Part shown: piece by piece, positions 14,342 to 64,000 of the stretch
Layout of the letters: each line of letters starts with the position of its first letter
Numbering within the stretch: the first letter of the stretch is position 1
Assembly: GCF_019059575.1 (NCBI RefSeq)
Contig: NW_024881825.1
Location: 600,459-664,458 of the forward strand
DNA length: 64,000 bases
Direction: 5' to 3'
DNA from: Amphibalanus amphitrite
Lineage: Eukaryota > Arthropoda > Thecostraca > Balanomorpha > Balanidae
Program-made: the position numbers and the translations under genes
The notes under the pieces: model-generated
What the model was told of the DNA's origin: nothing
The model's input: only the letters and a program-made list of their open reading frames with translations
The model's database searches: none

Positions 14342-17300
14342 ATGGAAGATGCTGTGTGCCCGTTTGTCTACTGGTCCCAGACCAAAACAAAAGTTCACCT
14401 AAAAATTGATCTCAGGGAGGTAAAGGTAAGTAGGAAATGCATTTTCATTTTTGTGATGCATCAGCTCTTTTCTGGAGACAGCATGGGCATGACATTGCTC
14501 CGAACTCATGAAGTTCCACATGTGCGTACAGTGTCCCAAAATTAGTGAAGTTCGTAATTTTTAAGACCTTTGCCCATCAGAATTTGGGTTGAAAATGACA
14601 TACAAATGAAAAAATCATATTTTTGCTTCCAATTTTACCAAAAGAACATTTTCCTGGATGGTCTTTTTATCCTTCACTCTACTACACCTGTATATAAAGT
14701 CACGCTGTCCCCACTTTTATGGGCCCTATCTAACCCTCAATTTTCCACTCATCCTCTTTTGGCTGAGTAATTATTCAGTCTGACGCCCAAGTGAAAATAA
14801 ATTTTTTGGACACTACATATTGCAAACTCTGCTAGAAAGGAGGTAATTACCTGCTGGCAGTCTAGGCCAGCAGTCTGATTTCAAATTACCTTGGGTAGGT
14901 ATATGACCTTTAGATGTGCTTGCTTTAGTTTATCAAATTGTCACAATAGTACTAATTAGTCTCATCCTACTCTAGCTTGCCTGTGTAGGTAGGTGTGGTA
15001 TTTGCCTATACCCGCTCAGAACAACAATCTCGTAATCAGCAATAAGATTTGACAATTCTTTTGTGGATATTCCTGTTAATTCATGAACAACACTATGGTG
15101 CTGCCATATCAAGCTTATGTGGATAGCAGTTGAAGGGCTGTTTCCATTTGTACAGAAGCCGGATGTGGATTTACTTCCCGAGCAGCTGGTGTTCAGGGCT
15201 GAAGGTCTGGGCAACTCTGGCAACCAACTGTATTCCTTCACCCTGGATTTGTTCCAACAAGTCATACCAGAGGTGAGCAGAGCTCTGTGAATTTTGTAAT
15301 GATCAACTGGGTGTGAATGCAATATGTATTCAATTGTTTGACCAGTTATTTTATTATTATTAAAGCTTTGCTATTTGGTTATAGGTACTGGTTCACAGGC
15401 ATAGTTATAGTTACACACCACAATAGGCAGGGAGGGAAGGAGCTGCCATTTGTAAATGGTTGCCAGCACCATAACTGCAATAGCCTGCTGTATTTCCTGT
15501 CTCAGTAGCGCAGCACCTGGTGTAACACGCTTATTCCCCACACTCAGGAGACCCATGTAACACGCTGATCTTCCCCACCCCCAGGAGACCCAGTACCAGG
15601 TGTCAGACCGCAATGTTCAGGTCACGCTGACCAAGGAGGACGAGGAATGGTGGCCCCACCTGACTCGCCAGAAGACCAAACTCCCCTGGCTGAGGGTAAG
15701 ATTGTACCAATGGGCAACAATGAATTATAGCCAGTGACCATTTGTTTGCAGTCATTAACTCATTATTTTTCTTATGTGCTCTATTTTAAAAAGTGACTAT
15801 GCTACTAGGGGACCCATCCTTTGCTCAATTTTGTTATTTTATTAGAAACTGGTGAACGTTGCCGATCATTAGCGGCGGAACACCTTCAATTAAGGGGGGC
15901 ACTGCCGACTTTTGGTCCCATTCTTTCCATGCAACGCCCATAGGGCTAATGTTAAAATGCCGAAATCAAAGGGGGGGGGGGGGCACGGTGCCCCGGTGCC
16001 CTCCCCGTTCCGCCGCCTATGTTGCCGATCCTTAGCAGGACTGTCCGAACAGTGCCGATCATTAGCAGGAGGACTGTCTGTGCCGCCTGCGACTCTCACG
16101 CAGAGGGCTGTGCTGACCGGGCAGCCGGCCGCTCCCCGCTCCCCGCTCCCCACCCGTGTTTACCGCCTCAGCAGATAGTGAGATGACTGACAGATTGCTG
16201 TCTGGGCAAAAACCCAGATAACTCGGGCGGTCTGGAGCGGCAGATACTGCTGACAGCGGGAAGATTGACACGCCCACACGGGCCGGCCGCGGTGTCGCCC
16301 TCCGACTGTCGCTATGTGCGGTCGGCCCCTAACTGGACCCGCCCCACCGTGCAGACGAAGGGTTACAGCGGCTGGGGAACGGCCCATATGGTTTTCGACA
16401 CGTTTACTTAGCTCTGAATTTCTTCTAACTGAAGTGCAAACAATTTTATCGTGTTTGCTAACACAACACTGCCATGCTGAAAACTATCAAGGAACGTCGA
16501 TGATTGCAGATCGCAATGTGATTCATCGCTGGGCGCTGGCATAATACAGTGAAGCCCTACTACATGAAATCGATCTTCTATACCTCAAGTTATAGTTGCA
16601 AACTACACAGCAGGACACTCAACATATTCGTGTTTAGTTGCTCCATCCTGACCGTGTCACGCGCTCAAGCTCCAGAGAAATTACTCGAGTGATCGGTTGA
16701 GTTCAGAAACATGATTCGTGTTTTTAAAATTGCCGACATTCAGTGTTTGAGCAACTGTTCACTGCTCATTGCTCCCAAAGTGGGTGATCTACGAATCGTA
16801 AATAAATGACTCCGCTCCTCATACCACTGGTAGCCGCCGACTGCAGCGTCCTCTATAACTCTGGCCGCCAGGTGGACTTTGACAGGTGGCGCTCGGAGAG
16901 CGAGGACGAGGCCGAGGGCCGGGACGTGATGAGCGACTACCCGGACGTCTACGACCGGCTCCTACAGGAGGAGACGGCACCGCGGGACAACAGGCGTGAG
17001 TGAGGGGAGGGGAGAGGGCGCCCAGAGACAACAGGCTTGAGTAGGGGAGGGAAGACCGCGCCCCGTGACAATTATAGGCGTGAGTAGGGGGAGGGGAGGA
17101 GACGGCGCCCCGGGATAACAGGAGTGAGTGCCTGAGTAGGGGAGGACAGGAGACAGCGACTGGCTCCTGCAGGAGGAGACCGCGCCCAGAGACAATAGGT
17201 GTGAGCAGTGCTTTCCGCGATAACTAATTTTTGGACCTGCGATAACGATAAAACGATAAGAAAGGTTTACGATAACGATAAACGATAAACGATAAAAAAT

Positions 17301-20300
17301 TCAACAAATTAACAGCGATAGCGATAAAACGATAAAACGATAACGATAATTGTTTTTTTTTTAAACAGCGATAACGAAGCGACAAACGATACAACGATAA
17401 CGATAATTGTTTTTTTAACAGCGATAACAAAAGCGATAAGAAATAGAGCTTAAATAAGTGTACTTAAAGGTTATTTGCAGATCTATACACTAAGCAGATG
17501 GCAACAGGTTGCGCGCACATACTGTCGCGCGGCATACACTGTCGATCGTCTTCCATTTTTCCATCATCCCGTTTTACATTTTATCGTTTATCGTTGATAA
17601 CTTTTGTAACTTGCGGTAAGTGGAGGAGCGATAATTTTGAAAATTTAGCGATAAAGGATAACGATAACTGATTTACTTAACAGCGATAATTATCGTTTAT
17701 CGTTTATCGCTCATCCTATCGAATGCGGAAACCACTGGGTGTGAGTAGGGGAGGGAGACCTCGCCCCGGGACAACAGGCATGAGTGAGGGGCGGGGGCGG
17801 GGGATAGTGCAGCGGACTCTACCGGACGGGCTGGTAGGAGACGACTATTGACCATTCGCTACTTTTGACTGGGCCCTGTACTACTACCAGTTGGCCTGTG
17901 CAATGTTCTGCAACAATATATTTGTTCACATCTTCCAGTGAAATTACAAACATGCCTTTGAGAGCTCTGCAAAAACTTAACTGAGTGTTCTCACAACAAG
18001 TCAGCGCCTTCAGTGCGAAGTATTGTTCAGAAGGCCAAAGTTCCCTCGGAGGACTCACCGCCGCCCGCAGGTCGCCGTTTCCGGTGAATAGCCTATGTGA
18101 GAGCTAACTACTTGATCGTGTACAACCTGTTCGCCACTGTTTTCAGTGAACAACTTCCGCGAGAGCTACCTGATCATGTACAACCTGTGGCAGCTGCTGG
18201 GATTCGCCGTCATCCTCGGCAAGCTGGCGTTCCGCTATAGACTCGAGGGAGAGGGTGCGTACAGTACTTCTGCCGGGGTGGCGCTCTCAGCCTGCGCCTC
18301 GCTGGAATCGCAATACTTGGATTTGTGGTGGCTGCCTATGCTGCGATCATTTGAAAATTGAAATGTGCACGATGCATTATACTGCTATCTGTTATGTTTT
18401 AATATTGTAATAGTTCTGCGCTGGTGCTAATGCATAAAACATAGACATAAATCTGTTCTACGCTAGCCCCGCCCGCTGCCCGCTGGTCTGACCGACCGCC
18501 CGCTGCTGCCAGACTCGATGCTGAAGGCCTACGACACGGTGGGCGTCAACATGAAGCTGGCGCAGGGCCTGCAGGTGCTGGAGATCCTGCACCCGCTCTT
18601 CGGCATGACCAGGGGCGGCGTGCTCGAGCCGCTGATGCAGGTACGACTGTCAGGGACTGACAGATTCATTGCAGGGACTGTCGGGGTGCGCTACTCTGGG
18701 AGGGCGGGGCAGGGGGAGCGGTGCGCTACGGAACTGACTGGCTGAAATCTGTGTCGGACCAGCTTGGTTTTATCGGATTTCGCGCAATCTTATTTTACCA
18801 ATGCATTCAAGAGTCTGATGGTGTGTTGTCAGGTGGCTGGCAGGAACCTGATGTTGTTCATATTGCGGTATTTGATGTCATATCTCTGTCTCAGGAGCCT
18901 GACGTTGTTCGCGGTGTTGTATTTGATGATTTATCCCCGTGTCTGTCGTCAGGTGACGGGCAGGAACCTGACGTTGTTCATATATTGCGGTATTTGATGT
19001 TGATTTCATATCTCTGTCTCAGGATCCTGACGTTGTTTGTGGTGCTGTATTTGATGTTATATCCCTGTGTCTGTCGTCAGGTGACTGGGAGAACCTGATG
19101 CTGTTCGTGGTACTGTATGCTGTGTTTGATGTCATATCTGCCATATTTGATGTTATATCCCTGTGTCTGTCGTCAGGTGACGGGCAGGAACCTGATGCTG
19201 TTCGTGGTGCCGTATTTGATGTAATCTCTGTGTGTCGTCAGGTGACTGGCAGGAACCTGATGCTGTTCGTGGTGCTGGAGGGCGAGCCGAGGATGCAGAC
19301 CAAGCCGGCCGTATTCTACCTGTTCGTCGTCTGGAGTCTGGTCGAGCTGGTCAGGTATGTCAGACTGGAGTCTTGTCAGGCAGACTGTACCTCCGGGGAC
19401 CCGCACTGGCTACTGCACACTCCGTATCATCAGATCAGCTTTGCCTATAGCGCTGCTGTACTCCAGGTACCCGTATTACACGCTCCGTGTTATCAAATTA
19501 GTCATACCTTTTCCATTGTGCGTCAGGTTACCCGTACTGTCAAACCCGTGCTACCTGTCGCTCCGTATTACCAAATTAACCTCGACTATGTCGCTGTGCT
19601 CCAGGTACCCGTACTACACGCTGCGCATCATCCGGCGAGAAATATCGTTCGTCACCTGGCTGAGGTACACCATCTGGATCCCGCTCTACCCGCTGGGCTT
19701 CATCACCGAGGGCGTCCTCTACCTCAGGTGAGAACGTACCTGCCGCTCTACTACGGAGTGCGCCCTGTACCTCAGGTGATACTATCTTTCAAGGCTGGAT
19801 AGCGCTATACCATCTGCACGCTTTCGGTGCGATTCTGTTTGAACTCTGGTGAGGCAGCCCCGCCTTAGCTCCGATAATTTACCTATCGTCTTACTCCTTT
19901 TGTGCCCAAGTGTATCTGGTGCATGTATTTTCCACAATTGTGTTGTAGGCTGATCTCTAACATAGAATTCACATAGAATTCTCGCCATCGGCACCCTCTG
20001 ACAGGTACTGGGCAGTTCTATTATGTTAATTTTCTTTCTTGTTTACTTGTTTGATTTTACTTGGTTGGAGCTTGGTATTACTTTTAGTGGCTGCTCGATA
20101 TAATGGCCAGGACTAAGCTAACGTGACCGAACCGGGTGGGGGATGGTGCCTAGTGATAGGCTGTGGGCCTTTGTGCCATCTCCCCATAACACCACTGTCG
20201 TCAACATTGTTTCTAAATAAATGGTTGTTGTTGTTGTTGTTTTGACCGCGCCTCGTCCACCCGGCCAGGGCGCTGCCGTACTTTGAGGAGACAGGCCGCT

Positions 20301-20788
20301 TCTCCCTGGCCATGCCGAACGCAGCCAACATGGCCTTCCACTTCCCCACCGTGCTGAAGGCGCTGCTGCTCTGCGCATTCATGCCAGGTAGGCTTCATGG
20401 TGGCGGGGAGCTCTCGGATCACTCTGGGACAGTGGGTCGACGGTGGAGAGCTCTCCGAGCGCTCTGAGACGGTGGCGATTATCGATGTCACATCGAGCAC
20501 CACCCATATTCTGTGCTTGACTTGTTTGGCGGTTGAATGATAGCTTTCACAGTGCCATTGAAAAAAATAATTATATTTTATTTGGTCTTCCCACTGTGCA
20601 ACTGAAGCAGCCCGGTGAAATGTTCCCTCAGTCCTCCGTTTTGCCCCAGCTACCGGCTGCACCTCTCTGGCCCCGCCCTGACCTTGGGTTCCCTCTGCCG
20701 CCGTGTTACAGGCATACTTGTGGTGATGCGGCACATGTACCGGCAGCGACGCAAGGTCATCGGACCAGCAAAGGTCAAACAGCACTAG
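14342..20788 (+). CDS. HACD3: Very-long-chain (3R)-3-hydroxyacyl-CoA dehydratase 3
   Basis: Ten exons join in frame with GT-AG borders: 14342-14425, 15156-15272, 15585-15695, 16872-16995, 18147-18254, 18513-18640, 19242-19354, 19605-19727, 20269-20387 and 20712-20788. The product is 367 residues; the human protein has 362. Exons 1-3 encode an N-terminal p23/CS-like domain (VCPFVYWSQTK). The rest is the multi-span ER-membrane dehydratase that removes water from 3-hydroxyacyl-CoA in fatty-acid elongation. The catalytic Tyr and Glu are kept in IPLYPLGFITEG as about Tyr290 and Glu297, with the family spacing of seven. The C terminus is basic (RQRRKVIGPAKVKQH). An acceptor at 14307 implies a spliced 5' UTR. 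Several introns carry tandem copies of the adjoining splice junction. A duplicated acceptor before exon 3 and arrays at exons 4, 7 and 8 are listed separately. Confidence 0.93.
15521..15592 (+). repeat. Duplicated 3' splice site before HACD3 exon 3
   Basis: A 35-bp unit (TGTAACACGCT...CCCCA(C)...CAGGAGACCCA) occurs twice, at 15521-15555 and 15556-15592. Each copy contains a pyrimidine tract, an AG and the first exon bases GAGACCCA. The second copy is the one that keeps the frame. Use of the first would read into TGA within a few codons. Confidence 0.85.
15872..16017 (+). mobile_element. Short MITE, copy A3 (intact)
   Basis: This 146-bp element in HACD3 intron 3 starts GCGGCGGAACACC and ends GTTCCGCCGCC. 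It carries the uninterrupted sequence GGGCTAATGTTAAAATGCC, which is the empty target site for the TTAA element in copy A2. Confidence 0.8.
16975..17205 (+). repeat. Tandem array of HACD3 exon 4 donor copies
   Basis: After the real donor (exon ends 16995, then GTGAGT), the junction CCGCGGGACAACAGGCGTGAGTGAGGGG-type sequence recurs four more times. Examples are GACAACAGGCTTGAGTAGGGG, GACAATTATAGGCGTGAGTAGGGG and GATAACAGGAGTGAGT. The last copy at about 17158-17205 also repeats the preceding exon bases (GGCTCCTGCAGGAGGAGACCGCGCCC). A sixth copy continues after the hAT insertion at 17738-17800. Most copies keep a plausible GTGAGT donor. Confidence 0.8.
17206..17737. mobile_element. Non-autonomous hAT element rich in CGATAA
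   Basis: The 532-bp element has imperfect terminal inverted repeats CAGTGCTTTCCGC and GCGGAAACCACTG. It is flanked by an exact 8-bp duplication, GGTGTGAG (17198-17205 and 17738-17745), the target-site size of the hAT superfamily. The interior is mostly degenerate CGATAA/TTATCG repeats with no coding frame. It inserted into the donor-derived minisatellite of HACD3 intron 4, so that minisatellite is older than the insertion. Confidence 0.85.
18097..18132 (+). repeat. Partial copy of HACD3 exon 5 just upstream of the exon
   Basis: GAGAGCTAACTACTTGATCGTGTACAACCTGTT closely matches the exon 5 segment GAGAGCTACCTGATCATGTACAACCTGTGG that starts about 60 bp downstream. The copy lies in intron 4, on the intron side of the real acceptor at 18146. 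Confidence 0.7.
18823..19241 (+). repeat. Seven-fold array of the HACD3 exon 7 acceptor
   Basis: A degenerate unit of about 60 bp repeats six times before the real junction. The fullest copies read GTCAG|GTGAC(T/G)GGCAGGAACCTGA(T/C)G(C/T)TGTTC, that is, acceptor AG plus the first exon 7 bases, followed by GTATTTGATGT-type filler. Copies start near 18828, 18893, 18949, 19019, 19077 and 19175. The real exon starts at 19242 and is the only copy that continues in frame into the conserved transmembrane segment. Confidence 0.85.
19396..19604 (+). repeat. Array of the HACD3 exon 8 acceptor
   Basis: Three degenerate copies precede the real exon 8 start at 19605: near 19398 (GGGGACCCGCACTGG), 19464 (CTCCAG|GTACCCGTATTACACGCTCCGT) and 19524 (GTCAGGTTACCCGTACT). 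The second is nearly identical to the true junction CTCCAG|GTACCCGTACTACACGCTGCGC. A donor-like copy of the exon 8 end (CTGTACCTCAG|GTGAT) also lies downstream at about 19768-19780. Confidence 0.8.
20107..20241 (+). mobile_element. Truncated LINE or SINE 3' tail
   Basis: About 130 bp in HACD3 intron 8 end in TTTCTAAATAAATGGTTGTTG followed by a short (GTT)n run. A truncated retroelement 3' end with a microsatellite tail fits, but I cannot name the family and see no target-site duplication. Confidence 0.35.
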
Positions 20789-23782
20789 GAGACGGGACGC
20801 GCCTGGGCAGAGGAGGGGTCTCCGGTCAGTCAGTGGCGGAAGGGAAACACGAAAACATCACGCGTGAAAAGAACGTTTATCGAAACAAGTGCGGGGTGAC
20901 TGAATCACTGATGTAGAGGAGTGTTTTCGGATCGATTCGTCAACGATTTTTGTCTTCTCAACTAGTGTTTCTCATCTGTTCTTTTTTTACTTTTTAAACA
21001 TTTCTCGGTGCTTATTGATAGACTCGGCTCTGATCAGTGTCAGCTAGTCCGCCGGTACCAGCTGTTTCGCCGGCTGTCCGCTGGATGGCAGCACTGCCGG
21101 GTCGCCGCGCGGACCGCAGGAGTAGGTGACCGTGGTGATGTGATATCAGGTGGAAGTGGGTCGTGTCTATCTCCCCGGATGGTCGGTGGTTCACCTACTG
21201 TCCTCCAGCGCGCCGCTGACCAGCCGACCGACGGGCGCCCCGCCCAGCGGCGGCAGCGGGGTAGTGGGCGCAGCGAGCTCGCTACCGTTCACGGTTACTG
21301 GCCGGTGGTAGGGGCGTACAGTCCCCTACCGCTGGACTCTCCCTCCTGGACCGCTGACCGGCTGCAGCGGCAGACGTAGTTCGGGTCTCGGGCCGGCCAC
21401 TTGGGAGGCAGGTGGAGACTGATGAGATGCCTCCGCCGCCCCTCTCTCCCTCCCGCCTCTGTGTGGTCGGTGTAGGGGGCTAATCTGGGTCGTCAGCTGC
21501 CTGTTCAGATGCCGCCGGCGCGGTGCTATTCCCTGCTCAGAGTGTTGTGAGGTGGGATAGGCTGGTCCTGCCCTGGAGCCGACTATCGTGACTGCCACGG
21601 GTGTGACGTGTACAGAGTGGGATACGTTAATGACTAGTCGGGTACCGTTAGGTCGCCAGGGTACAGTGCAGACTGAAGGTAGGCGCTGACATTCAGTTCA
21701 GATCAGCTGTCCGGTGGCCACTGCATGTAGCGCTTAGTTGCCGGAAGCAAGCACTCGCCCGTTGGAGGGCCAGACTTATGGGTACAACGGATCAGAGGAG
21801 ACACGGGGTGCCGCGGTCCCTGCCCCGCCGGTCCCTGTTAAATCAGCGACTCAATGTGCGGTACTGCACGGTACTCAGATGCTTCGCCGGCATTCGTTCG
21901 GATCTTAGAGTCACGTTGCGTTGATTTGTTTGCAATACGCTCAGAATCATATGTGAATTCGGCTCCAGTGGGGCCCGCGGATAGTTGTATGTCGCCGTGG
22001 GTTGGATGGAAACATTCACTCTGAACTCGCCAGCCGTTATCAGCAATGACTGTCGGCGAGACTAGCCTAAGACGGGTTCTAGGCTACAGATTGTAAATGC
22101 CAGTGATTACATAAATCGAATGATTGTGACGATTGCTAGTGACATTCCAGTGGCCTGCGATTACCGACGCGGCAGCCACGTAGTCAGGTGGTGCAGTCGG
22201 TGCACCCTTGTGATGTGCACTCTTGTCACCGGGATCACGGGCATTACTGTCGGTCGACAATATATTTGTGTGTGACTGAGACTGTGTGCGGAGTGGGTCT
22301 GCGGTTTCCCTATCCTCACGTGCGTCTGGGGAGCCACGGGGCTTAATTTGAAGTAATTCATGGTATCGGTTTTAGCCCTCATACGCACAGGCGGATCCAA
22401 AAGGCAATCTCGGACGCTGCGGGAGGATATACCCTCGAAAAAGTTTCTCCAATTAAAAAAAAACTTCGGCTTCCGATTCCAAATGCTGCGCAGTTTTAAG
22501 CGAGCCTTTCCTCATAAGAAATATTTAGGAAAATGGCAAATTTATTTCGGGCGCTGCGAGGGGGGTGGGCATTTATTTGCCCCTTGGATCTGCCAGTATT
22601 CACGTCACTTTTGTAATTGGTGCGCAGCTACATAATGGAGCGGGCACGAGCATTGTACAAATGAAAGGAACGCACCCCATTTTTATTTGTGAGCCTTTTA
22701 CACAGGCGCTTGTAGTTGTGCAAAGCCCATTTTAAAAAAAGTTTTACTAAGATTTTATTGGCCCGGGGCGAGAGCCCGAAAGCATTCAGAGTAGCTCAGT
22801 AAAAGTTTAAAAGCCAATATGTTTCTGAATTCAGACATCATCGTAAAACAAAGTTTACAGGTCTATCTCAAACTTTTGAACTTGCGAAGGACAGTATCAA
22901 CATTATATTTGTTTTAAAAAGCTGCGTTCAAGCCCGAGCGCATGGCTTTCAAGATTTCAACTCAAAACCAACAAATGATCTCACAAGCTTGAGCACTATG
23001 TTGCTGCGCAATGGCAATGATCCAGTTACAGAACCGAATTTCAACGAATCTGTCGAGCAAAGCAGACCATGTATTGTATTTGCTAAATGCAGAGTTATTC
23101 AGCAAATTTATTATTTTTGTATGTGACCTCATAAGAATTAAGAAGTACGACCTTCAAAGACGTAGCCGAGAGTCGGTAACCCTTTAAATCGGCTTACTTT
23201 AGCCGTACTCCCAAGGCCCTATATACCTACTCCTAAATGCTTTCCGTGCATGAGTATCTTCTAAGCTATGTCCAAGCATTTGTGTTTGGAATTCCTATTT
23301 CGTGGACATTGGGTACGATTTTCATATGCAGGTGTGATGAAACGCGAAAAGCCCGCAGCAGCCAGACGCTCGGCAGTTCGCGTGTGCGGACGACTTTGAC
23401 ACGGTTGAATGGAGCCTCAGGCTCTGCAGCAGCAATCACTGAACTGACCATCGTGCGAGACTGCGGTCAGATTTCCACACATGTGGGAGCGCTTTACCGA
23501 TCAGATTGTAGGGCGAAGGTTCAGCGAAGGCCGAATTGCTGCTGTCATGTCTGTCCAATGTGTCCAATACGTCCGTTGGCCAACCATGATTATGTACCTA
23601 CCGGCGCTTTGTGTTCCCTCTTCCCCTTCCATTACCGTTGTTGACCCGTTTGTTTCCCCTCCCCATCCCCTCACTGTTGCTGGCCCGTTATTTATCATTA
23701 CCCCTTTTCTCTCCCTCCCTATCATCCCTCTTTCACTCCGCTGTTTCCTCCGTCCTCCTTCCCTGTATGCATGACTTCTGTT
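20789..23782. other. HACD3 3' region and intergenic DNA
   Basis: The HACD3 3' UTR must begin here, but I see no clear AATAAA close to the stop. 21000-22350 is moderately GC-rich and 22400-23230 AT-rich. No supportable gene is visible. Confidence 0.4.
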
Positions 23783-24100
23783 GCAGCCAGTCCATCCCAC
23801 ACCCCAGTCTCTGAGCCCGGCCTGCAGTAGCCCTGCAGTTCCGTATCCGGTGGAGTGGTCTCTGTTCGATCACCTCTGCATGTAGCAGCCAGTCCATCCC
23901 ACACCCCAGCCTCCGACCCCGGTCCGGCCTGCAGAAGCCCTGCAGTTCCGTATCCGGTGGAGTGGTCTCTGTTCGATCACCTCTGTGTGTATCCCCAACA
24001 CATGTAGCAGCCAGCCCATCCCACAGCCCAGTGTCCGAGCCCGGCCTGCAGTAGCCCTACAGTTCCGTATCCGGCGGGGACGGTCGGCGCTGCTCCGTCA
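23783..24100 (+). repeat. Three-copy tandem repeat of about 100-120 bp upstream of a first exon
   Basis: Copies starting at 23783, 23885 and 24007 share GCAGCCAG(T/C)CCATCCCACA, GGCCTGCAG(T/A)AGCCCT(G/A)CAGTTCCGTATCCGG and, in the first two, TGGAGTGGTCTCTGTTCGATCACCTCTG. The third copy runs on into the CpG-rich block ending at the putative first exon (24303). It could be a duplicated promoter or 5' UTR segment. Confidence 0.75.
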
Positions 24101-24301: not shown

Positions 24302-27300
24302 ATGTGAGTGGAGGCTGGGTCAGCCAGCGCCGGGTCAGGGCGGGATAGTGGTTGAGGGCCCTCCAGTGCCGTGGAAGGGGTAAAGGTGGACACTGGACAA
24401 TGGGTGGGAGGATAGTCCAGGTGCTGCTCGAGTGTTGTCAACCTCTTGTGCTGTTTTTTTGTACTTTCGCTTGTAAATCTTTCATTCCGTATCCGCCGAT
24501 TCCACCATCTTTCCGACGTGCTTTTCCAGACATTTTTAGGATTGCTGTTTAGCCGTAACGTTTAAAAAATTAAAGGCAAGATCATTTGTAAGTTAATTTC
24601 AGTTTGTACTTTGAAGGCCTTGATTGCGAATGCAGCCACGCATTGTTTCAGTATTTTTCAGACTTTGATTCTCATTTTCGTTTCATACTTTCTTGCCTTC
24701 CATTGGCCTCAGGAATCAAAGACTATACATAAAATGCGCAAGTGAAAAGTGGTGTGATAAAACAATAAGAAATAAAAACGACTTCCCAGTAAACCGCTGC
24801 CTTGAGGATATAATGGGATTGAGACCAATGAAACGGTCACGGAAGACATGCACGTTGCATAAATCAACGTATCATTGTTTATATTTGCTTCTAAAGATCC
24901 AAAGGAGCAATACTTATCGGATCTATGATGCCATATTTATCCAGGTAGTAAAATCAGTTAGGCAGAGGAGTCACGTGAAAGCGGTGAATATCGCGCAGTC
25001 ATAAATGGAAAGTATGACGTCTGATAGCGAGCTGAACGGTCGTGTTTTATGCATGGGTGTAGGAGCGCCAAAAATATTGGTGAAGGATGCCACCTGAACC
25101 TAATGAAAAGGGACAGGACCGTGCCAACCAACACGCACAGTGCAAGCGGGGGGGGGGGGGGGGCGAATTTCGCCAACCCCTTGTTTTTCGCAGATATCTT
25201 ACGCCCTTATCATCCCATTAACGTCAAATTTTTAATGCCTGCCTAAAACTGAATTGTGCATCTTGCCATGACAGCAAGATGTAAATCAAGGCCTGGGCTA
25301 AGGAATTTTGACTACTGGGGCAAATGGTCAACGTGTGTTAACCCGCGCCCTGCTGGGAGGGGGGGGGGGAGGTTTTTGGACACCCATCCCCCCTGCGGTT
25401 TTTCGCGGATATCTGAAAAACGGCGGCACCTTATCATCTATCAATTTTATACATTTTGTGAAAATTTCAGACCAGGGTCCTTCAAGGTCAGGTCACCAGG
25501 TCGCTACAAGTGACCTCACCTCATAAACACATCATAAAATGTTTCAATGTATGCCATAGCTACACCAAGTGACGGATCGCTTTGAAGCTTTCAGCAATTG
25601 ATAAGTGTAACAGTATGTACAAATTCGGAATTTTCATATCGGTGACCTAAGGTCGGGTCAATTTTGCGACCTCTCTAGGTATTATAAGTCAATGGGAGAA
25701 AATTCAAAACCGTCTTTTTCGGACGAAAGTCATTCTAAACACTCTCAAACACTAAATTACAAGTAACTTTGACACACTGAACATGAAAACGGCACCCGTG
25801 ACCCCTGTTTATGCCCCTAAGGTCATCTCAGGTCACGAATGGTGTCTAACAGTTTTTTGCGACTAACTTTTGAAAGAGGCATGCTAGAGCGATGAAAACG
25901 CCTTATATATGTTCAGCTCGACGATACAGATCCACTAATATGCAATATGACAATGTCCGGTCAGGTCATGACCTTGACCTGAGGTCAAATTTTCAAGTTG
26001 ACCTTTCAAGGTTAAGTTATAGTTCATTCGATGCGTCTTGACGAGAGGAACTCGATGCCGGTGAAAATAAGCTCGTACAAGGCTTGAGTCAAAAGTTATT
26101 GCAGAAAAACTGTTTCCGAAAAAAATCGTCTATTTTTGCAGTTTTTGCCCCCTGCAGGCAAAACCGTTGACGTTAGGTCAAATCTGAGAGAATCACTCAG
26201 AAAGGGCGTTAATAGGGCTATCGAATGCGCTTTTCCGTGGCGCTGTAGCTCTATTGGTTCCCGAGCTATGCGTTGGCTTCTTGGAAATTGTCGACATTCG
26301 ACCTGGAAATCGGCGAAATTTTGCCTTCAATGACCTCTGGTGGCCTGACCTTTGACCTGACCAAAAAAGTGACCGAAGTGATTTCGTCATTATTTTTGGC
26401 GCTCTTTCGAACGCCGCCTTCTGCGTATCGCTACGTGGCCCAGGAGCCGAGTTAGAAGGGGGGGTGTTCAAACACTCCCCCCCCCCAGCAGGGCGTGGAA
26501 ATCCAGGACCCCCAGCCGGGCGCGGGTTAAAAAACAGACATTTGATCAACCGTCGAATCCAGTAGTTCTAAGCATAGGTAGGTGAAGACCCTCCCTTGCA
26601 TTGTCCAAGATTGGTGAAGGATCCTTCACCAATCTGAAACTTTGGTGAAAGGTATCCTTCAAGAAAGAGATACGTTGCTACACCTATGGTTTTATGTGAT
26701 TTGCTTTGCCGTTTGGTCCGATCTTTAATGCCTCTTTGAAAGTTTCGAGCATATTGATATCCTTCATGGTTTTTTCGCCCTGTAGCCTGTCCCACGTTAA
26801 GTTGCTGCTTGTCCAGATTTTGCTTGTTTTAAAATATTTTGAATAATCGATAATCCCGTTTTAAAAACGAATGAGCTGATAGCAGCATTTCCGAAAAAAG
26901 CTTAGGATGTAGAACAAAACAAAGACGTCAGCCATGTGAAGAGTGTATGGCCTTCTGCGGCAGCTCCCGCTGCAGCTATCACCCGTCTCTCGGGCAGCCC
27001 CCACCGGCCCTCACAGCCCCTGTGCCTTCCCCCTTTGTTATCCCTCCCCATCGGCAGCCTCTACTGGCACATCTTGTATCCCTCCTCCATCCCACCAGTC
27101 CTCACCGTCCCCACAGCTCCGCCACCACCCACTCTCCTCACCGTCCCCACAGCTCTGCCACCACCCACTCCAGCCTCCTTACCGTCCCCACAGCTCTGCC
27201 ACCACCCACTCCAGCCTCCTTACCGTCCCCACAGCTCCGCCACCACCCACCGGTCTCACCGTCCCCACAGCTCTGCCGCCACCCACTGTTCTCTCACCGT

Positions 27301-49172: not shown

Positions 49173-52100
49173 ATGGGTAATGCTCAGAACCGAGAGCGTG
49201 GCCAGTCGGCGAGCTCAGCGTCGCCAGTCACCAGGGCGACGGTGGCAGAGTCAGCCTTCAGGTCAGCTATCAGTGGGTGCTAGATCTGTATGAGGGGGAG
49301 GGGCTAAGGTTTGACTGGCCTCCAGGTATTGGTAGATATTTTGATTACCTACCATCTTAGCAGTTAGCAGTACTGTGTGATAACTGATAACTAACTGTGA
49401 TAACTGTGTGACAACTGGACAAGTCTCAAGTTTAAGTGATACATATGTGTACCTAGGAGCAATGATGTGGGCTTCAGTGTGAGAGTCCATCATGCAAGTG
49501 TAACTGAATCTATGACCATGTGGTGGCATGCAATGTTTAACATGGATCGTGTGCATACATTTGATAGGCACTGCTGTAGAATGAGAGCTACACTTTTTTA
49601 TAAGTGGTTCAGGTTGCATATAAATCCATTTTACATCATTTATTTAAGGGTCATTGTGATCAGCTGCTGTCATTGCCAGTCATTGTAAGTAGTGATCTGA
49701 TTACTCATTGATGAGTATGTGAAGTTTGTTTTTGGTAAACTGTTCTTATGTTCAACATCACAAGACATAAGCCCTGCCTAGATCCAGATCCAACTTGCTC
49801 ATTGGTTGGCATTCAAATGAGGAGTTACTGTAACCAGTAAAACGCCTTTTGGGCGACCAACGGAGCGAGCGAGAGGATGGGCCTTGCACGTGCGAAATTG
49901 CGAGGGGGTACCCCCTAACTTGTGCACTGCACCCTACTAACCGGTCTTTAGCGATGTGCCAAATTTCAGCGCAATCGGCCTAGCCGTTCTCGAGATCTGG
50001 AAGCGGCACACTGCACGTGCGCACGTGCAAGCGGGGTCCAAACTGACTTTTGCACGGCACCCTACTAACTGGTCCCCAACCGTGTACCAAATTTGAGCGC
50101 AATCGGCCCAGCCGTTCTCGAGATCTGGGAGCGCCCCCTGCACGTGCGCACGTGCTGTAGCACCCCAACCTGGTGTCCTTGGGGCACTTGACCTGACCTC
50201 AGAGGTCACCGGTTGACGTAGGACCTTAAAATCGGGTATCAATCTCTGCGTCTCGTAACGGCGCACACGCTCGTTTTTTTCCGCGACGCGCCAGCTCCAT
50301 CAGGGGCGAAACGACTAATAAGCATTTCGGCAAATGGCATTTCGACTTTTTTGACAGGTCGGCAAAAAGCACATCGGCAAAATGACATTCGGCGAAATGC
50401 ATTCGGCAAATCGCCTTTCAGCAATTACCACCTCGGCCGGCGCGTATGTAGAAAACCAATAGGTCCGGTGAGGGTTAAATTGTTGTGTATCTGGCCGCTG
50501 TTTTATCTTACCTTGCTAATTTATATCGAGTCTTACTTTCTAGTCTTAATATTTAGAAGGTTCTTTCTTGTAGCACACTTGTTTTATTAGTACGACGTTA
50601 TGGGCGCAAAATGACCTTAGCAGTCGGCGCGCCCTAAAGCCCCAATCAACAAACAAACGGCTTCAGGCCGAAGGCCTGAAGCCTGATGCACAACCACTTA
50701 ACCTAAAAATAATTGACTTATCATTGTCTGCAATCTATTAATGTATCTTCTTCCTTATCCACGGGAAGGCAAAAATCAGTAGGTCAGGTAAGGTAAGGTT
50801 TAGTTATGTTTTTCTTATACTTTGGTGACATGTAAGTGGGTTTCTAGCTTTGAAAAGCGAGTCGGTCCTTAAGTTAACCCTCGCCCTGGCAGGGGGGTCG
50901 ATGCGACCCCCCTAAGGTTTTTCGAAGATAGCGTAAAAACGGCGGTGCGCAGCGCCGCCAAATTTAACACAGCCTATGGGGCAACCTTTTTACATATTAC
51001 CTGAAAATTTCAGGTCCGGGTGACCTTGGGTCAGGTCACCAGGTCAGAAAAACCGGTACAAGGTCATGGTCAAATTTCAATTTTCTTTTTGCACCTGTCC
51101 AACTCACAGTTTTCGACTGATTGCCTTCAAACTCTCAGGATGTGCTAAGTTCACCGAGTTGTATAACATATATTCCGGCTTTTTTGAGGTCACTGACCTG
51201 AGGTCAGTTAGAGGTCATTACGTCGTAATGTTAAGCCTACGGGAAAATACTAAATTCGGAAAATACTGGAGATATCCGTTTTGTTCTATCACTTTTGTGC
51301 TTTGAAACCACGGTACTTAACAGCAGGTCACTTGGTGCTTCTTTGTTTGGTGTACTAATCCATGGGTCAGGTCAAATGAGGTCAACTGAGGTCAAATGAC
51401 GTTTTTGCCAATAACTTGGCACATAATGACGCTAGAGCTTAAAAAATGGTACCATTGTGTTTCTGGTGATCAGCCGAATCGAATGATATGCAATATGATG
51501 CAATTTGGTTAACTTGAACTTAATTTATTAAGCTAAGTTTACTTAAAATTTAAGAAAAACTTTAAGTACACTTAAGCAAGCTAAAAAGTATATCATTCGA
51601 CGCGCCTTGACGTGCTGAGTTCACTGGTGCTTTTCTTTTTTTTTCTCTATCTTAATTAGATCAAAAGTTATAAGCGAAAAACTTTTGACCTGTTTTTAGC
51701 GAAATTTTTACATTTATACCCTCCCAAAACCCCCCTAAATATTGACCTAGAGCAACCAAATTTGCACAGGGGCGAAAACTCCAGGGGGCCCACCTACTTA
51801 CCAAATTTGGTGTTTCTAGGTGCCATAGGAGCCAATCGCGGGGGGGGGGGTCGCATCGACCCCCCCTGCCAGGCCGTGTTATGAAAAATGCCCTGCCAGG
51901 GCGAGGGTTAATACTTACGGGTCAAGTTAGGTTAGGTTAGGTTAATTTCGACTAATTGGCATTTCGGCAAATTGACATTTCGACTTATTGACTTTTCGGT
52001 AAATTGACATTTCGACTAATTGACACTTCGGCAAATTTACATTTCGACTAATTAGCATTTCGGCAAATTAGCATTTCGAGGAATTGACATTTCGACTAAT

Positions 52101-55100
52101 TGACATTTCGGCAAATTGACATTTCGGCAAATTTACATTTCGACTAATTAGCATTTCGGCAAATTAGCATTTCGGCGAATTGACATTTCGACTAATTGAC
52201 TTTTCGGCAAATTGACATTTCGGCAAATTGACATTTTCGGCTTATTGCACGTCGGCAAGAAGGTATGTCGGCAAATTGCATTTCGACTTTTAGCACTTCG
52301 CCCTTTTGACACGTCGGCAAAAAGACACGTCGGCAAAACGCATTCGACATATTGACATTCGGCGAATAAGCATTCGGCAAAATGCAGTTCGGCAAATTGT
52401 CCTGTAACCCCCCAACCTTAACCCTCGCCCCGTTGGGGGGGGGCCATTTTGGCCCCCCCTGTGGTTTTTCCTGAATAGCAACGCCAAATTTTCAGTACCT
52501 TTCCGGGCATCAATTTGACACCTTCACACCAAATTTCAAGTCTTAGGTCACCTTAGGTCAGGAGTTATTGAGGTCAAACTGAGGTCATGTTCGAGCAAAA
52601 ATGAGCAAAAACATGCAATCTTGAAACGCTCACCAAATCTACAGTTATCAAGCAATTTCAAAGTTCTTTATATGGTCTAGTAGACAAAAAGCGGCGCTAC
52701 AAAACTGCTATCTCGGATTTTCAAAATTTTGGTTTTTGACCAAAAAATCAAAAAATTGATTTTTTTAGAAAAACTAAAAAAATCCAAAATTTTTCCGAAT
52801 TTCGAAAAAACCGGAATATATGTGATAGTCCCTAGCGCTCTTCTATATACATACCAAATTTCAGATCGATATCTCGTTTTTTGGCCAAGTTATAGCGAAA
52901 AAACTGTCAAAAATGATGACGTCAAATTTTTTGAACTCAATTTTTAGCGATTCTAGACCACGTACGGCAAAACAAAGACCACCATTGAACTCCCCGTGAC
53001 GAGCTGCATCGATTCGATACCCATTTTATGCAAAAATATTAACTTTGAAATTTGACCTAATTTGACCTGACCTTGACCTGACCTTGACCTGACCTTGACC
53101 AAAACGTGACCTAAGCTGGCCCCAAAGGCTGCCTGACCCACATAATCGCATTTGTCATGTAAAATGGACCATAAAACACGTATCACACGACACTTTCATA
53201 TTGTGACCCCCCAGTGACCTGACCTCAGTGACCTGACCTGGTATCAGTGACCTCAACTAGCAAAATATGTGTTTGAAGAACATTTCCCCATCGATGATTT
53301 TCAATGAAATGCATTTTACTCGATTTTACAACGCATTTCTTGAAATGCCTGTAAACGGTGAAAATTGGACCTTTTACCTGACCTGTGACGTCATCGGTTT
53401 GACCTAGGTCAATAAAATTGGGTCACAAGGTAGTTCCCTGATAGGGCTATCCAACACCGTTTGCCGCTTGTCGCTACGTTGCGTGGTTCTCGAGATCTTA
53501 GGGGGGGGGGGGCAAAATGGCCCCCCCCAACGGGGCGCGTTGCTCGGCAGAGCCCAACGGGGCGCGGGTTAACACATGCAGATGAATTATCTGATGGAGA
53601 CCTAACTGTGTACCGAGTTTCAATTCAATCGGCCCAACCGTTGTGCCGTTATTGAGGTTGCAATTTTGGGGGTTCTTGAAAAATGTCCAACTTTACCACG
53701 CGCCACGTGCGGTGGTTGGCAAGAACGCATGGTGGCCATCACACCACAGAACTTTTACGTCCAAGTGACATTCAGTAAAGAAGACCGCTTGTCAATCGGA
53801 TGTCCCGTTCCTAAGATATTAGCTTTTGAAGAGCGTCCCCACGGCCGGCCGGCCGGCCGGCCGCTCATACTCAGGATTTTCCCTTAATTCAGTATGAGAC
53901 TCCGCTCGCTTCGCTCGCTCCGTAACAATTTAATTGAAATTAGTTGAAATGGTATATTAGTCAATTTAAATTTTGATCAAACTGTAGTTAAAATGCTTAG
54001 TGAATTGTGCCATTGAGTGAATCTGTCCTGTGAATATAATCACATCACTTCACACATCCCAAATCTGTGTCCTTCCCTCATTGTTCCCCCCAGTCCAGTC
54101 ACACAGACACCAGTCCCCCGAGCTGCCCGGCCACACAGACACCAGTCCCCCGAGCTGCCCGGCCACACAGACACCAGTCCCCCAGCTGCCCGGCCACACA
54201 GACACCAGTCCCCAGAGCTGCCCGGCCACACAGACACCAGTCCCCCGAGCTGCCCGGCCACACAGACACCAGTCCCCCAGCTGCCCGGCCACACAGACAC
54301 CAGTCCCCCGAGCTGCCCGGCCACACAGACACCAGTCCCCCGAGCTGCCCGGCCACACAGACACCAGTCCCCCGAGCTGCCCGGCCACACAGACACCAGT
54401 CCCCAGAGCTGACCGGCCACACAGACACCAGTCCCCCGAGCTGCCCGGCCACACAGACACCAGTCCCCCAGCTGCCCGGCCACACAGACACCAGTCCCCA
54501 GAGCTGACCGGCCACACAGACACCAGTCCCCAGAGCTGCCCGGCCACACAGACACCAGTCCCCAGAGCTGCCCGGCCACACAGACACCAGTCCCCCGAGC
54601 TGCCCGGCCACACAGACACCAGTCCCCAGAGCTGCCCGGCCACACAGACACCAGTCCCCCGAGCTGCCCGGCCACACAGACACCAGTCCCCAGAGCTGCC
54701 CGGCCACACAGACACCAGTCCCCCGAGCTGCCCGGCCACACAGACACCAGTCCCCCAGCTGCCCGGCCACACAGACACCAGTCCCCCGAGCTGCCCGGCC
54801 ACACAGACACCAGTCCCCGAGCTGCCCGGCCACACAGACACCAGTCCCCAGAGCTGCCCGGCCACACAGACACCAGTCCCCCGAGCTGCCCGGCCACACA
54901 GACACCAGTCCCCCGAGCTGCCCGGCCACACACAGTCCCCCAGCTGCCCGGCCACACAGACCGCCGACTGACGGTCCCTGTGTCTCTGTGTGCGCCAGTT
55001 TCGACCAGCAGCAGCAGCGGCGGCGCGGCTCGCTGGCGCTGCAGGACGAGGACCCGCTGACGCTGCCGTCGCTGTCGCGGCGCCGCGTCAGCGACGGCGT

Positions 55101-55810
55101 GGAGCCGACGGCGCCGCCCGTGCCGCCGGCCTCGCCCGCCTCGCTGCCGCACCAGCACTCTGCGCCCAGCGAGGTGCCGGCGCCGTCCGCCGAGCGGCCC
55201 AGCAGCCCCTGCTGCCCGTAGTCATCCAGTGGAAAAAGGGCGGCCAGGACGTGCAGCTGTGCGGCAGCTTCACCGGCTGGAAGCCCATCCCGATGGCCCG
55301 CAGCGAGAGCAACATCAATCGGAGCACATGAGCATCGTCAACCTGCCCGAGGGCCGGCACGAGTACAAGTTCCGCATCGACGGCCAGTGGGTGGTGGACA
55401 CCAGCGAGCCCACCGCCGACACCGACGACGGCGACAAGACCAACTACATCGACGTCAAGGGCTCCGACTTCGCCGCCTGCGAGGCGCTGAACCTGGAGAC
55501 GGCGCCGGCGGCCGGCGACCTGTCGGGCTCGCCGCCGGGCAGCTACGGCCGCGAGCCGCCGCCCAGCCGCGCCGCCGCCTGGGAGAGCCGGGCCGCCAGC
55601 CAGCCGCCGGCGCTGCCGCCCCACCTGCTCCAGGTGATCCTCAACAAGGACACGCCCGTGTCGTGCGAGCCCACCCTGCTGCCGGCGCCCAACCACGTGA
55701 TGCTCAACCACCTGTACGCGCTGAGCATCAAGGACGGTGTCATGGTGCTCAGCGCCACCCACCGCTACCGCAAAAAGTACGTCACCACGCTGCTCTACAA
55801 GCCCATCTAG
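49173..55810 (+). CDS. PRKAB: AMP-activated protein kinase beta subunit, two frameshifts in exon 2
   Basis: Exon 1 (49173-49261) encodes MGNAQNRERG..., with the Gly2 needed for N-myristoylation. A spliced 5' UTR is implied by TTTCAG at about 49116. Exon 2 (54999-55810) carries the rest: a Ser/Pro-rich linker, the glycogen-binding module (VVIQWKKGG, LCGSFTGWKPIPMARS, LPEGRHEYKF, DGQWVVD), and the C-terminal domain that holds the alpha and gamma subunits (PPHLLQVILN, NHVMLNHLYAL, ATHRYRKKYVTTLLYKPI). The beta subunit scaffolds the energy-sensing kinase. Two one-base losses disrupt the frame: one at the C-run 55206-55209 and one between about 55321 and 55328. Conserved protein on both sides of each points to sequence error or very recent decay. 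Three TTAA elements lie in the 5.7-kb intron. Confidence 0.88.
49850..50165 (+). repeat. Two-copy tandem repeat of about 130 bp
   Basis: Two copies share GCAC(T/G)GCACCCTACTAAC(C/T)GGTC, CCAAATTT(C/G)AGCGCAATCGGCC and CGTTCTCGAGATCTGG, then CTGCACGTGCGCACGTGC. The last includes a palindrome, GCACGTGCGCACGTGC. A weaker third relative (TTCAATTCAATCGGCCCAACCGTT) lies at about 53615-53645, just outside a TTAA element. Confidence 0.7.
50166..50474. mobile_element. Partial TTAA-type element with inserted short repeats
   Basis: 50175-50300 (GACCTTAAAATCGGGTATCA, CACACGCTCGTTTTTTTCCGCG, CAGCTCCATCAGGGG) matches the inverted left part of the TTAA element at 12583-13467. The unit ends GTGAGGG followed by TTAA (50475-50478). 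Between them lies a short array of CATTTCGGCAAA-type units (50310-50430). The left end cannot be placed. Confidence 0.5.
50878..51907. mobile_element. TTAA-flanked piggyBac-like non-autonomous element, copy 3
   Basis: TTAA at 50874-50877 and 51908-51911 bracket 1,030 bp. The left end is CCCTCGCCCTGGCAGG followed by GGGGGGTCGATGCGACCCCCC. The right end mirrors it, with the loop TCGCATCGA and an extra spaced terminal repeat (GCCCTGCCAGGGCGAGGG). The interior has AGGTCA hexamers, AT-rich stretches and no transposase frame. Confidence 0.72.
51940..52400. repeat. Short tandem array, GGCAAATTGACATTTC unit
   Basis: About 25 copies of an 18-19 bp unit, (C)GGCAAATTGACATTTC or CGACTAATTGACATTTC, alternate between the GGCAAA and GACTAA variants. 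The right part degrades into CGTCGGCAAAA forms. It lies between TTAA element copies 3 and 4. A related short array is at 50310-50430. Confidence 0.85.
52422..53568. mobile_element. TTAA-flanked piggyBac-like non-autonomous element, copy 4
   Basis: TTAA at 52418-52421 and 53569-53572 bracket 1,147 bp. The left end is CCCTCGCCCCGTTGGGGG, then a G-run, CCATTTTGG and a C-run. The right end has the matching loop CAAAATGG and two spaced terminal repeats (CAACGGGGCGCG ... CAACGGGGCGCGGG). By eye about 20 AGGTCA or TGACCT hexamers lie inside, many as a TGACCTGACCT run at 53055-53110. There is no transposase frame. Confidence 0.72.
54095..54960 (+). repeat. Minisatellite before AMPK beta exon 2
   Basis: About 29 copies of a 29-30 bp unit, ACACAGACACCAGTCCCC(C)GAGCTGCCCGGCC, end about 40 bp before the exon 2 acceptor. 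Variants differ by one or two bases (CCCGAG, CCCAGAG, CCCAG). Each unit offers CACCAG|T with C-rich surroundings. The real junction is CGCCAG|TTTCGACCAG, so kinship is possible but weak. Frames of 270-370 residues on both strands are repeat products. Confidence 0.9.
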
Positions 55811-61772: not shown

Positions 61773-61910
61773 TCACGACGGGCCGCGGATCATGAGGTCG
61801 GCCCAGCGCTGAGTGTCGTGCGCCGGCCCGTCTCCGCCCAGCTCCGCCGGCAAGATGCGCCGACTGACGTGGTGGTACAGCGCCGATAGGTTGTTACCGT
61901 GGGTGTATAT
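61773..61910 (-). CDS. CRAL-TRIO lipid-binding protein, terminal exon
   Basis: On the minus strand, after CCGTCAG, 45 codons run to TGA. The sequence IYTHGNNLSALYHHV...ILPAELGGDGP matches the end of the CRAL-TRIO lipid-binding fold, where a HGN(N/D)L strand-helix is followed by LP.E.GG. It is closest in style to clavesin and alpha-tocopherol-transfer-like proteins, which carry hydrophobic ligands or phosphoinositides. The exon begins in phase 0. The upstream exons lie beyond the right edge, after an array of at least 2.1 kb made of copies of this exon's acceptor. The subfamily cannot be fixed from 45 residues. Confidence 0.82.
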   Translation of the reverse strand: MYTHGNNLSALYHHVSRRILPAELGGDGPAHDTQRWADLMIRGPS

Positions 61911-64000
61911 CTGACGGAGGGAAACAGACAGGTTGTTACCGTGGGTGTATATCTGACGGACACAGACAGGTTGTTACCGTGGGTGTATATCTGACGGACA
62001 CAGACAGGTTGTTACCGTGGGTGTATATCTGACGGACACAGACAGGTTGTTACCGTGGGTGTATATCTGACGGAGGGAACAGACAGGTTGTTACTGTGGG
62101 TGTATATCTGACGGAGACAGAGACAGGGTGTTACTGTGGGTGTATATCTGACGGAGGGACAAAGACAGGTTGTTACCGTGGGTGTGTATCTGACGGACAC
62201 AGACAGGTTGTTACCGTGGGTGTATATCTGACGGAGGCAGACAGGGTGTTACCGTGGGTGTATATCTGACGGACAGGCAGGTTGTTACCGTGGGTGTATA
62301 TCTGACGGACACAGGCAGGTTGTTACCGTGGGTGTATATCTGACGGACACAGACAGGTTGTTACCGTGGGTGTATATCTGACGGACACAGGCAGGTTGTT
62401 ACCGTGGGTGTATATCTGACGGACACAGACAGGTTGTTACCGTGGGTGTATATCTGACGGACACAGACAGGTTGTTACCGTGGGTGTATATCTGACGGAG
62501 ACAGACATGTTGTTGCCGTGGGTGTATATCTGACGGACACAGACAGATTGTTACCGTGGGTGTATATCTGGCGGACACAGACAGGGTGTTACCGTGGGTG
62601 TATATCTGACGGAGGGAAACAGACAGGTTGTTACCGTGGGTGTATATCTGACGGAGACAGACAGGTTGTTACCGTGGGTGTATATCTGACGGAGGGAAAC
62701 AGTCAGGTTGTTACCATGGGTGTGTACTGTGTATCTGACGGAGACAGACAGGTTGTTACCGTGGGTGTGTATCTGACGGACACGACAGGTTGTTACCGTG
62801 GGGTGTATCTGGCGGAGACAGGCAGGGTGTTACCGGGGTGTATATCTGACGGACACAGACAGGTTGTTACCGTGGGTGTATATCTGACGGAGGGACAAGA
62901 CAGGTTGTTACCGTGGGTGTATATCTGACGGACACAGACAGGTGTTACCGTGGGTGTATATCTGACGGAGGGACAAAGACAGGTTGTTACCGTGGGTGTA
63001 TATCTGACGGACACAGACAGAGTGTTACCGTGGGTGTATATCTGACGGAGGGACAAAGACAGGTTGTTACCGTGGGTGTATATCTGACGGACACAGACAG
63101 GTTGTTACCGTGGGTGTATATCTGACGGAGGGACAAAGACAGGTTGTTACCGTGGGTGTATATCTGACGGACACAGCAGACAGGTTGTTACCGTGGGTGT
63201 AATCTGACGGAGACAGACAGGTTGTTACCGTGGGTGTATATCTGACGGACACAGGCAGGTTGTTACCGTGGGTGTATATCTGACGGAGACAGACAGGTTG
63301 TTACCGTGGGTGTATATCTGACGGACAGGCAGGTTGTTACCGTGGGTGTATATCTGACGGACACAGCAGGTTGTTACCGTGGGTGTATATCTGACGGACA
63401 CAGACAGGTTGTTACCGTGGGTGTATATCTGACGGACACAGGCAGGTTGTTACCGTGGGTGTATATCTGACGGACACAGACAGGTTGTTACCGTGGGTGT
63501 ATATCTGACGGACACAGACAGGTTGTTACCGTGGGTGTATATCTGACGGAGGACAAAGACAGGTTGTTACCGTGGGTGTATATCTGACGGACACAGGCAG
63601 ACAGGTTGTTACCGTGGGTGTAAATCTGACGGAGACAGACAGGTTGTTACCGTGGGTGTATATCTGACGGACACAGGCAGGTTGTTACCGTGGGTGTATA
63701 TCTGACGGAGACAGACAGGTTGTTACCGTGGGTGTATATCTGACGGACAGGCAGGTTGCTACCGTGGGTGTATATCTGACGGACACAGACAGGTTGTTAC
63801 CGTGGGTGTATATCTGACGGACACAGACAGGTTGTTACCGTGGGGTATATCTGACGGACACAGCAGGTTGTTACCGTGGGTGTATATCTGACGGACACAG
63901 ACAGGTTGTTACCGTGGGTGTATATCTGACGGACACAGACAGGTTGTTACCGTGGGTGTATATCTGACGGACACAGACAGGTTGTTACCGTGGGTGTATA
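61911..64000 (-). repeat. About 55-copy array of the CRAL-TRIO exon acceptor, reaching the window edge
   Basis: On the minus strand each unit of about 38 bp consists of the exon start ATATACACCCACGGTAACAA plus CCTGTCTGTGTCCGTCAG, which restores an AG acceptor directly before the next ATATACACC. The exon proper begins with the same 26 bases. Variants include CTCCGTCAG and shortened units. The array continues past 64000. There are no unique spacers between units, so it is not CRISPR-like. Confidence 0.95.

Follow-up and report, generated by a model that had tools for sequence, protein, structure and literature searches.

Genes of the window

The window, the whole stretch of 64,000 nucleotides analysed here, is the final 64 kb of a 664-kb contig (C328) of the barnacle Amphibalanus amphitrite, whose assembly comprises 808 Mb in 2,644 contigs. 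Several of its genes carry intronic tandem repeats with a unit that copies the adjoining exon–intron junction, and these junction copies are the subject of this work. Exon models are built from homology, phase and splice signals, and all splicing referred to below is splicing as modelled.

The HACD3 gene is modelled from exon 2 to exon 11 (14308–20788, + strand; exon 1 lies outside the model) as ten phase-consistent exons, and the joined protein matches Pfam PTPLA (5.2e-57) and CS (1.1e-6). Three exons of a cysteine-rich gene join in phase; a Pfam scan of this gene gives no match. The exons of PSMG1 match Pfam PAC1 (8.2e-8). The last exon of a CRAL-TRIO gene, joined to its upstream exon on contig C725, matches positions 90–153 of the CRAL_TRIO profile (2.2e-14), supporting the acceptor at 61910. 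The last exon of an unnamed gene (38414–38601, − strand) has no match in the Pfam scan.

For much of the genome the assembly keeps the two haplotypes as separate contigs, and many CCT genes are accordingly paired. The second haplotype of the window genes is on C725. The divergence of the two haplotypes is uneven. Exons 3–11 of HACD3 are 95–99% identical between C328 and C725, and the exons tested at 36–45 kb are identical. HACD3 exon 2 is not found on C725 within the stretch read.

Copies of splice junctions in the introns of the window

The junction probe is a 30-mer of 15 exon and 15 intron bases, and a copy is counted where it matches the adjoining intron (searched over at most 2.5 kb) with no more than 8 edits. 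None of 158 random window probes reaches this threshold against shuffled neighbours; the corresponding threshold for 40-mers is 12 edits. Five window genes were tested, and 10 of their 32 modelled junctions (six acceptors and four donors, in four genes) have intronic copies, between 1 and 52 per junction. The mean in shuffled introns is 0–0.2 copies per junction with 30-mers. At all ten junctions the repeat unit spans the exon–intron boundary, exon and intron bases both being shared. The original prediction, made by a reader of the letters of the window, that intronic repeats copy the adjoining junctions in at least four neighbouring genes, is therefore borne out. We refer to the intronic copies as decoys.

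In HACD3 (+ strand), the acceptor of exon 4 (first exon base 15585; region 15521–15599) is copied once, at 15548 (37 bp upstream; 6 edits). The donor of exon 5 (16995/16996; 16966–17800) is followed by five decoys at about 17036, 17080, 17122, 17740 and 17780, with 3–8 edits. The last two are separated from the others by an AT-rich insertion (about 17210–17738) of ATAACGATAA-like repeats, which sits inside the array and is missing on the other haplotype. The acceptor of exon 8 (19242; 18824–19275) is preceded by four decoys at 18833, 18953, 19080 and 19177, with 3–4 edits each. The acceptor of exon 9 (19605; 19450–19690) has a copy at 19467 (4 edits) and another at 19528 that appears with 20-mers only, giving one copy with 30-mers and two with 20-mers, and the donor of the same exon (19727/19728; 19700–19790) has one decoy at 19773, with 7 edits. 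A decayed copy upstream of the exon 6 acceptor (18147; 18085–18190) does not reach the threshold in the window, at 11 edits with the 30-mer and 13 with the 40-mer, and this junction is scored as negative there.

The cysteine-rich gene (+ strand) has one copy about 60 bp downstream of the exon 2 donor (27684/27685; 27634–27749; 7 edits; TRF period 60), one at 31131 upstream of the exon 3 acceptor (31221; 31100–31240; 7 edits), and three decoys at 36419, 36492 and 36572 upstream of the exon 4 acceptor (36656; 36400–36700; 2–7 edits). On the − strand, the donor of PSMG1 exon 4 (exon end 44758; 44368–44790) has 11 decoys with a 31-bp unit and 6–8 edits. The largest array adjoins the acceptor at 61910 of the CRAL-TRIO last exon (61773–61910, − strand), where 52 decoys with a 38-bp unit run up to the contig end (61773–64000).

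Ten of the 11 exons listed in the original prediction hold if, as we infer, it numbers exons one lower than our models do, and if HACD3 exon 6 is counted. PSMG1 exon 5 fails, with a junction copy at neither end in the 30-mer test of the window. The prediction missed one junction array, at the acceptor (38601) of the unnamed minus-strand last exon, with four decoy acceptors at 38686, 38761, 38814 and 38884 (38414–38920; 1–6 edits).

Directly before the acceptor of cysteine-rich exon 2 lies an array of 11 copies of a 40-bp unit (27099–27546; the unit includes CCCCACAG), in which the 30-mer test finds no junction copy (best, 11 edits). An array of 27 copies of a 32-bp unit (54100–54961) ends just before the acceptor of an AMPK-beta-like exon (54999–55810, + strand); this acceptor, for which the original prediction makes no claim, has no junction copy (best, 10 edits), and the unit is not a copy of it. 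The name AMPK-beta comes from reading the sequence by eye, the Pfam scan of this piece being without match. The exon has an apparent frame break near 55330, where one open frame ends and the C-terminal part continues in another; the break may be a sequencing indel or a true lesion.

Copy number differs between haplotypes

At the 30-mer threshold, the decoys of HACD3 in the window and on C725 number 1 and 1 at the exon 4 acceptor, 5 and 4 at the exon 5 donor, 0 and 2 at the exon 6 acceptor, 4 and 2 at the exon 8 acceptor, 1 and 0 at the exon 9 acceptor, and 1 and 1 at the exon 9 donor. The intron that follows the exon 5 donor is 1151 bp long in the window and 695 bp long on C725. Partner haplotypes also differ at two CCT loci, in one of which the decoy lies 47 bp away on one haplotype and 61 bp on the other; the other has three decoys on one haplotype (L058) and two on its partner (L035). 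Unit number thus differs between haplotypes at the exon 5, 6, 8 and 9 sites of HACD3 and at the L058/L035 locus.

Equal counts are found at PSMG1 (11 and 11), cysteine-rich exon 4 (3 and 3) and the exon at 38414–38601 (4 and 4; the exon is identical at 188 of 188 positions on C725). They reveal little on the age of the arrays, because the exons there are identical between the contigs.

The CRAL-TRIO array on C725 (236747–241907) consists of nearly gapless matches over about 5.1 kb, with an estimated 135 units (27 read, in L008). Its copy number differs from that of the window array, which is cut by the contig end. Many of the matches on C725 recur at an unvarying offset of 2,250 bp, which is either real or an assembly error.

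Junction copies in other genes

To estimate frequency elsewhere, we used introns of genes picked by family without regard to repeats. The 33 CCT introns have three positive acceptors and no positive donor, the 29 kinesin introns two of each, and the three proteasome introns none. In total, 7 of 130 junctions (five acceptors and two donors) and 7 of 65 introns carry copies. Before counting, one of 34 predicted CCT introns was dropped as a bogus model, as were five CCT and two kinesin places with a gap between family hits. Another eleven junctions, judged clear by eye, have no copy and are kept out of the 7 of 130; a flagged acceptor in L008 among the junctions read by eye is judged to be a mis-called site. 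Since the sample was chosen for adjacent family hits, short introns are over-represented in it (median 383 bp for the 62 CCT and kinesin introns).

The window is denser in junction copies than the sample (10 of 32 versus 7 of 130; Fisher P = 1.8e-4), but the window was picked for the feature. The recurrence of copies in unrelated genes and on both haplotypes agrees with the original prediction of a genome-level process and not a single accident.

Placement of arrays relative to junctions

The original prediction treats splice junctions as recurrent seeds of minisatellites and offers, as one of two explanations, that slippage favours splice-site sequence. Counted by position in 62 independent introns, no excess is seen: 5.5% of junction positions are copied (bootstrap 95% interval, 2.2–9.3) versus 6.4% of interior positions (3.0–10.7), with acceptors at 8.1% and donors at 2.7%. 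Copies are nearly absent farther inside exons. In the sample, exon positions 30–45 bp inside have intronic copies in 0.3–1.3% of cases and those 45–60 bp inside in none, compared with 6.4% in the intron interior. Because long arrays weigh on the interior positions of this test and arrays reach only slightly into exons, array-level tests were added, in which arrays may extend at most 30, 45 or 60 bp into the exon.

These tests use three finders in 12 settings. The ungapped diagonal finder, to which we give most weight, finds no array in 2 × 62 shuffled introns; it overlooks short arrays of two copies, HACD3 exon 4 among them, and scores the PSMG1 array, with its 6 exon bases, as non-crossing. 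In the sample, 4 of its 16 arrays cross a junction, versus 1.6, 2.4 and 3.1 expected under random placement for the three intrusion limits (P = 0.06, 0.20 and 0.37). With BLAST self-alignment, which misses some short-period arrays, 4 of 9 cross at E 1e-3 (1.2, 1.7 and 2.1 expected; P = 0.012, 0.047 and 0.105) and 4 of 7 at E 1e-5 (1.1, 1.5 and 1.8 expected; P = 0.006, 0.025 and 0.058). The first finder is noisy, merging chance 30-mer matches into arrays, some of which run from exon to exon; it gives 20 of 55 (13.6, 16.4 and 18.6 expected; P = 0.005, 0.10 and 0.36). Across the three finders the excess over random placement is 1.1- to 3.8-fold, with P from 0.005 to 0.37, and is significant at 0.05 in 5 of the 12 settings. 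The array-level part of the claim thus has an excess on its side and the position-level part has none, so that splice junctions as favoured seeds are suggested, not established.

An array-level excess would be expected if junctions were mutational hot spots, with tandem duplication promoted there by the junction sequence or by a process linked to splicing or transcription, so that minisatellites would be seeded more often than in other intron DNA. Such hot spots are in line with the window arrays, of which 5 of 8 cross a junction with the ungapped finder (1.1–2.0 expected; P = 0.0003–0.011) and 6 of 7 with BLAST at E 1e-3, with both BLAST settings in the sample, and with the 8.1% of acceptor positions copied compared with 6.4% in the interior. 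However, the window was selected for the feature, the more inclusive ungapped finder gives no clear excess in the sample, and the count by position gives none at all. In addition, the junction has no fixed offset within the copied unit. The segment shared with the best decoy ranges from 51 exon and 5 intron bases (donor of cysteine-rich exon 2) to 5 exon and 68 intron bases (a kinesin donor, L070), as expected of duplications placed regardless of the junction. We therefore regard junctional hot spots as possible, if doubtful. In a more specific version, a duplication process tied to splicing or transcription would copy junctions in preference, acceptors most of all, and leave about one intron in nine with decoys, and an exon-proximal rule would let the spliceosome ignore dozens, perhaps more than 100, equivalent acceptors; we judge this version unlikely.

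Decoy splice sites

The decoys of twelve window junctions and three junctions on C725 form a set of 96, of which 53 belong to CRAL-TRIO. In 91 of the 96, an AG or GT is present within 5 bp. If these 91 usable decoys were spliced, 59 would shift the frame, 23 would add an in-frame stop and 9 would leave the frame open; 82 would thus break the frame or add a stop. By exact alignment, with the sample genes included, AG is kept in 76 of 84 acceptor decoys and GT in 23 of 28 donor decoys. The splice dinucleotide has an identity (0.88–0.94) similar to that of neighbouring positions, giving no sign that decoys have been purged or specially kept.

The sites were scored with a weight matrix built on the 65 introns of the sample, among them the seven with decoys. 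The real site outscores most decoys; about 20 of the 96, to rounding, equal or exceed it. Among these are three of the four decoys of HACD3 exon 8 (13.2–13.4, versus 11.1 for the real site), 8 of the 53 of CRAL-TRIO, and three of PSMG1 at 9.9. Sequence alone therefore does not always mark the real site, which, judged from the reading frame, is probably the exon-proximal copy. The suggestion in the original prediction that junction duplications are tolerated and decoys ignored fits these data, as most decoys keep AG or GT and most would disrupt the protein if used.

The arrays might instead serve a function, such as that of splicing enhancers or of alternative sites. The retention of AG or GT, the decoys that score as high as the real site, and the presence of copies on both haplotypes at several junctions are compatible with a function. 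On the other side, 82 of the 91 usable decoys would lead to a frameshift or a stop, most decoys are outscored by the real site, the splice dinucleotide is conserved only as its neighbours are, and copy number varies between haplotypes. A function of the arrays is thus very unlikely.

Interpretation

Tandem repeats over exon–intron borders have been described in amphioxus under the name of mirages, in Adh3, TnC, the globins BflGb6 and BflGb9, and PGBD5 (PMC3087553, PMC3902484). In the first report, both boundary types are affected, AG or GT is present in many copies, reverse-transcription PCR (RT-PCR) indicates that regular splicing is undisturbed, haplotypes with 6 and 3 units occur, and a model of intron gain is put forward (PMC3087553); TnC and PGBD5 are further cases (PMC3902484). 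Somatic instability is also reported for the Adh3 mirage. The original prediction knew of no description at this density. As regards the repeats themselves it is wrong, the amphioxus mirages being repeats of the same kind and coming with the same idea of intron gain; its claim on density concerns this window. In the literature searched, which consists of openly licensed papers, we find no mirages outside amphioxus.

The barnacle arrays share with the amphioxus mirages a unit that spans the boundary, the involvement of both 5′ and 3′ boundaries, AG or GT in most copies, and differences in unit number between haplotypes. In contrast to the amphioxus cases, they exceed 50 copies and affect several neighbouring genes; the amphioxus mirages have been tested at the RNA level. 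Minisatellites with units of about 30 bp that can sit on exon–intron boundaries and change introns are also found among the human internal tandem repeats in segmental duplications; these are tied to recent paralogues and half lie in coding sequence (PMC2812944), whereas in the barnacle the copies are intronic.

The junction arrays are a real, recurrent and polymorphic feature, and an instance of mirages whose long arrays consist of decoy sites that are mostly intact. As to their origin, they are probably minisatellites of the mirage type, which arise by ordinary local tandem duplication that sometimes overlaps a junction, are pruned by selection and are tolerated by splicing. Short stretches of DNA would be duplicated in tandem in introns, and some duplications would overlap an exon edge. 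The intact junction would stay beside the exon body and leave the protein unharmed, with the extra copy becoming a decoy splice site on the intron side; duplications extending deeper into exons would be eliminated by selection. Once two copies are present, unequal exchange or slippage could alter their number, so that alleles come to differ. Splicing would keep to the copy nearest the exon, probably by exon definition and helped by the acceptor signals that acceptor units carry with them. This account of duplication, selection and splice-site choice is an inference from general principles.

Several points weigh against this origin by ordinary duplication. The junction-crossing excess in the sample, with P < 0.05 in 5 of 12 settings, makes a preference for junctions possible; the excess in the window is clear with all three finders, the window not being an independent test. 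The sample, selected for adjacent family hits, over-represents short introns. An array 75% similar to that of PSMG1 is present on contig C134, so the PSMG1 array may not be private. Finally, the splicing of the exons is assumed to be as modelled.

An assembly artefact, with repeats collapsed or expanded in noisy long reads, is highly improbable. The window terminates inside the CRAL-TRIO array, many matches of this array on C725 recur at a constant shift, and the AMPK-beta exon has an apparent frame break, as might be expected of assembly errors. However, the two contigs, which differ elsewhere (HACD3 exons being 95–99% identical), have arrays at the same junctions but with different copies, and the copies within one array differ in sequence.

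We give hardly any credence to the view that the arrays mark introns gained through tandem duplication of exonic AGGT, to which the original prediction took the AG/GT junctions to point: four of the seven decoy-bearing acceptor exons in the window start with GT, but in the window and the sample pooled the excess of GT-initial exons is not significant (6 of 12 decoy-bearing versus 16 of 60 other exons; P = 0.17), donor and acceptor contexts are alike (up to 10 edits) in 2 of 78 introns versus 3.0 expected with shuffled partners, and the copies adjoin introns that already exist. The known intron gain by tandem genomic duplication of AGGT, as presented in PMC3443670, resembles the barnacle case in that a tandem duplication doubles splice-site-like sequence. 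There, a duplicated exon segment turns into a new intron. In the barnacle it is the ends of introns already present that are copied, and the signature of AGGT duplication occurs in the tested introns no more often than by chance.

The interesting question is how splicing passes over dozens of intact decoys. Should the rate of 7 in 65 introns hold genome-wide, the barnacle would offer many natural experiments in splice-site choice, with near-identical sites in a row, only one of which keeps the reading frame, and with alleles of different length within one animal. It may also be a second lineage in which to test whether mirages feed intron gain.

Other repeats in the window

A dispersed satellite or mobile repeat as the source of the arrays is disfavoured by searches with the CRAL-TRIO unit and an HACD3 segment. 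Among the 49 matches listed for the CRAL-TRIO unit, in a search that skips very common words, all are on C328 and C725, and the HACD3 segment 18140–20003 is likewise confined to these two contigs in a genome search of the same kind. The array similar to that of PSMG1 (about 75%) lies at 883052–883908 of C134. Dispersed repeats with many genome copies are present at 20003–20243 and 43466–43671.

About three copies of a 107-bp unit (23779–24090) precede what may be a first exon, with an ATG at 24113 and a donor-like site near 24304; its peptide has no Pfam match. An array of about 29 copies of a 16-bp unit (51945–52399) lies outside the modelled genes. At the other end of the window, long open frames on the − strand (3290–7112) resemble, when read by eye, a non-LTR retrotransposon with endonuclease and reverse transcriptase.

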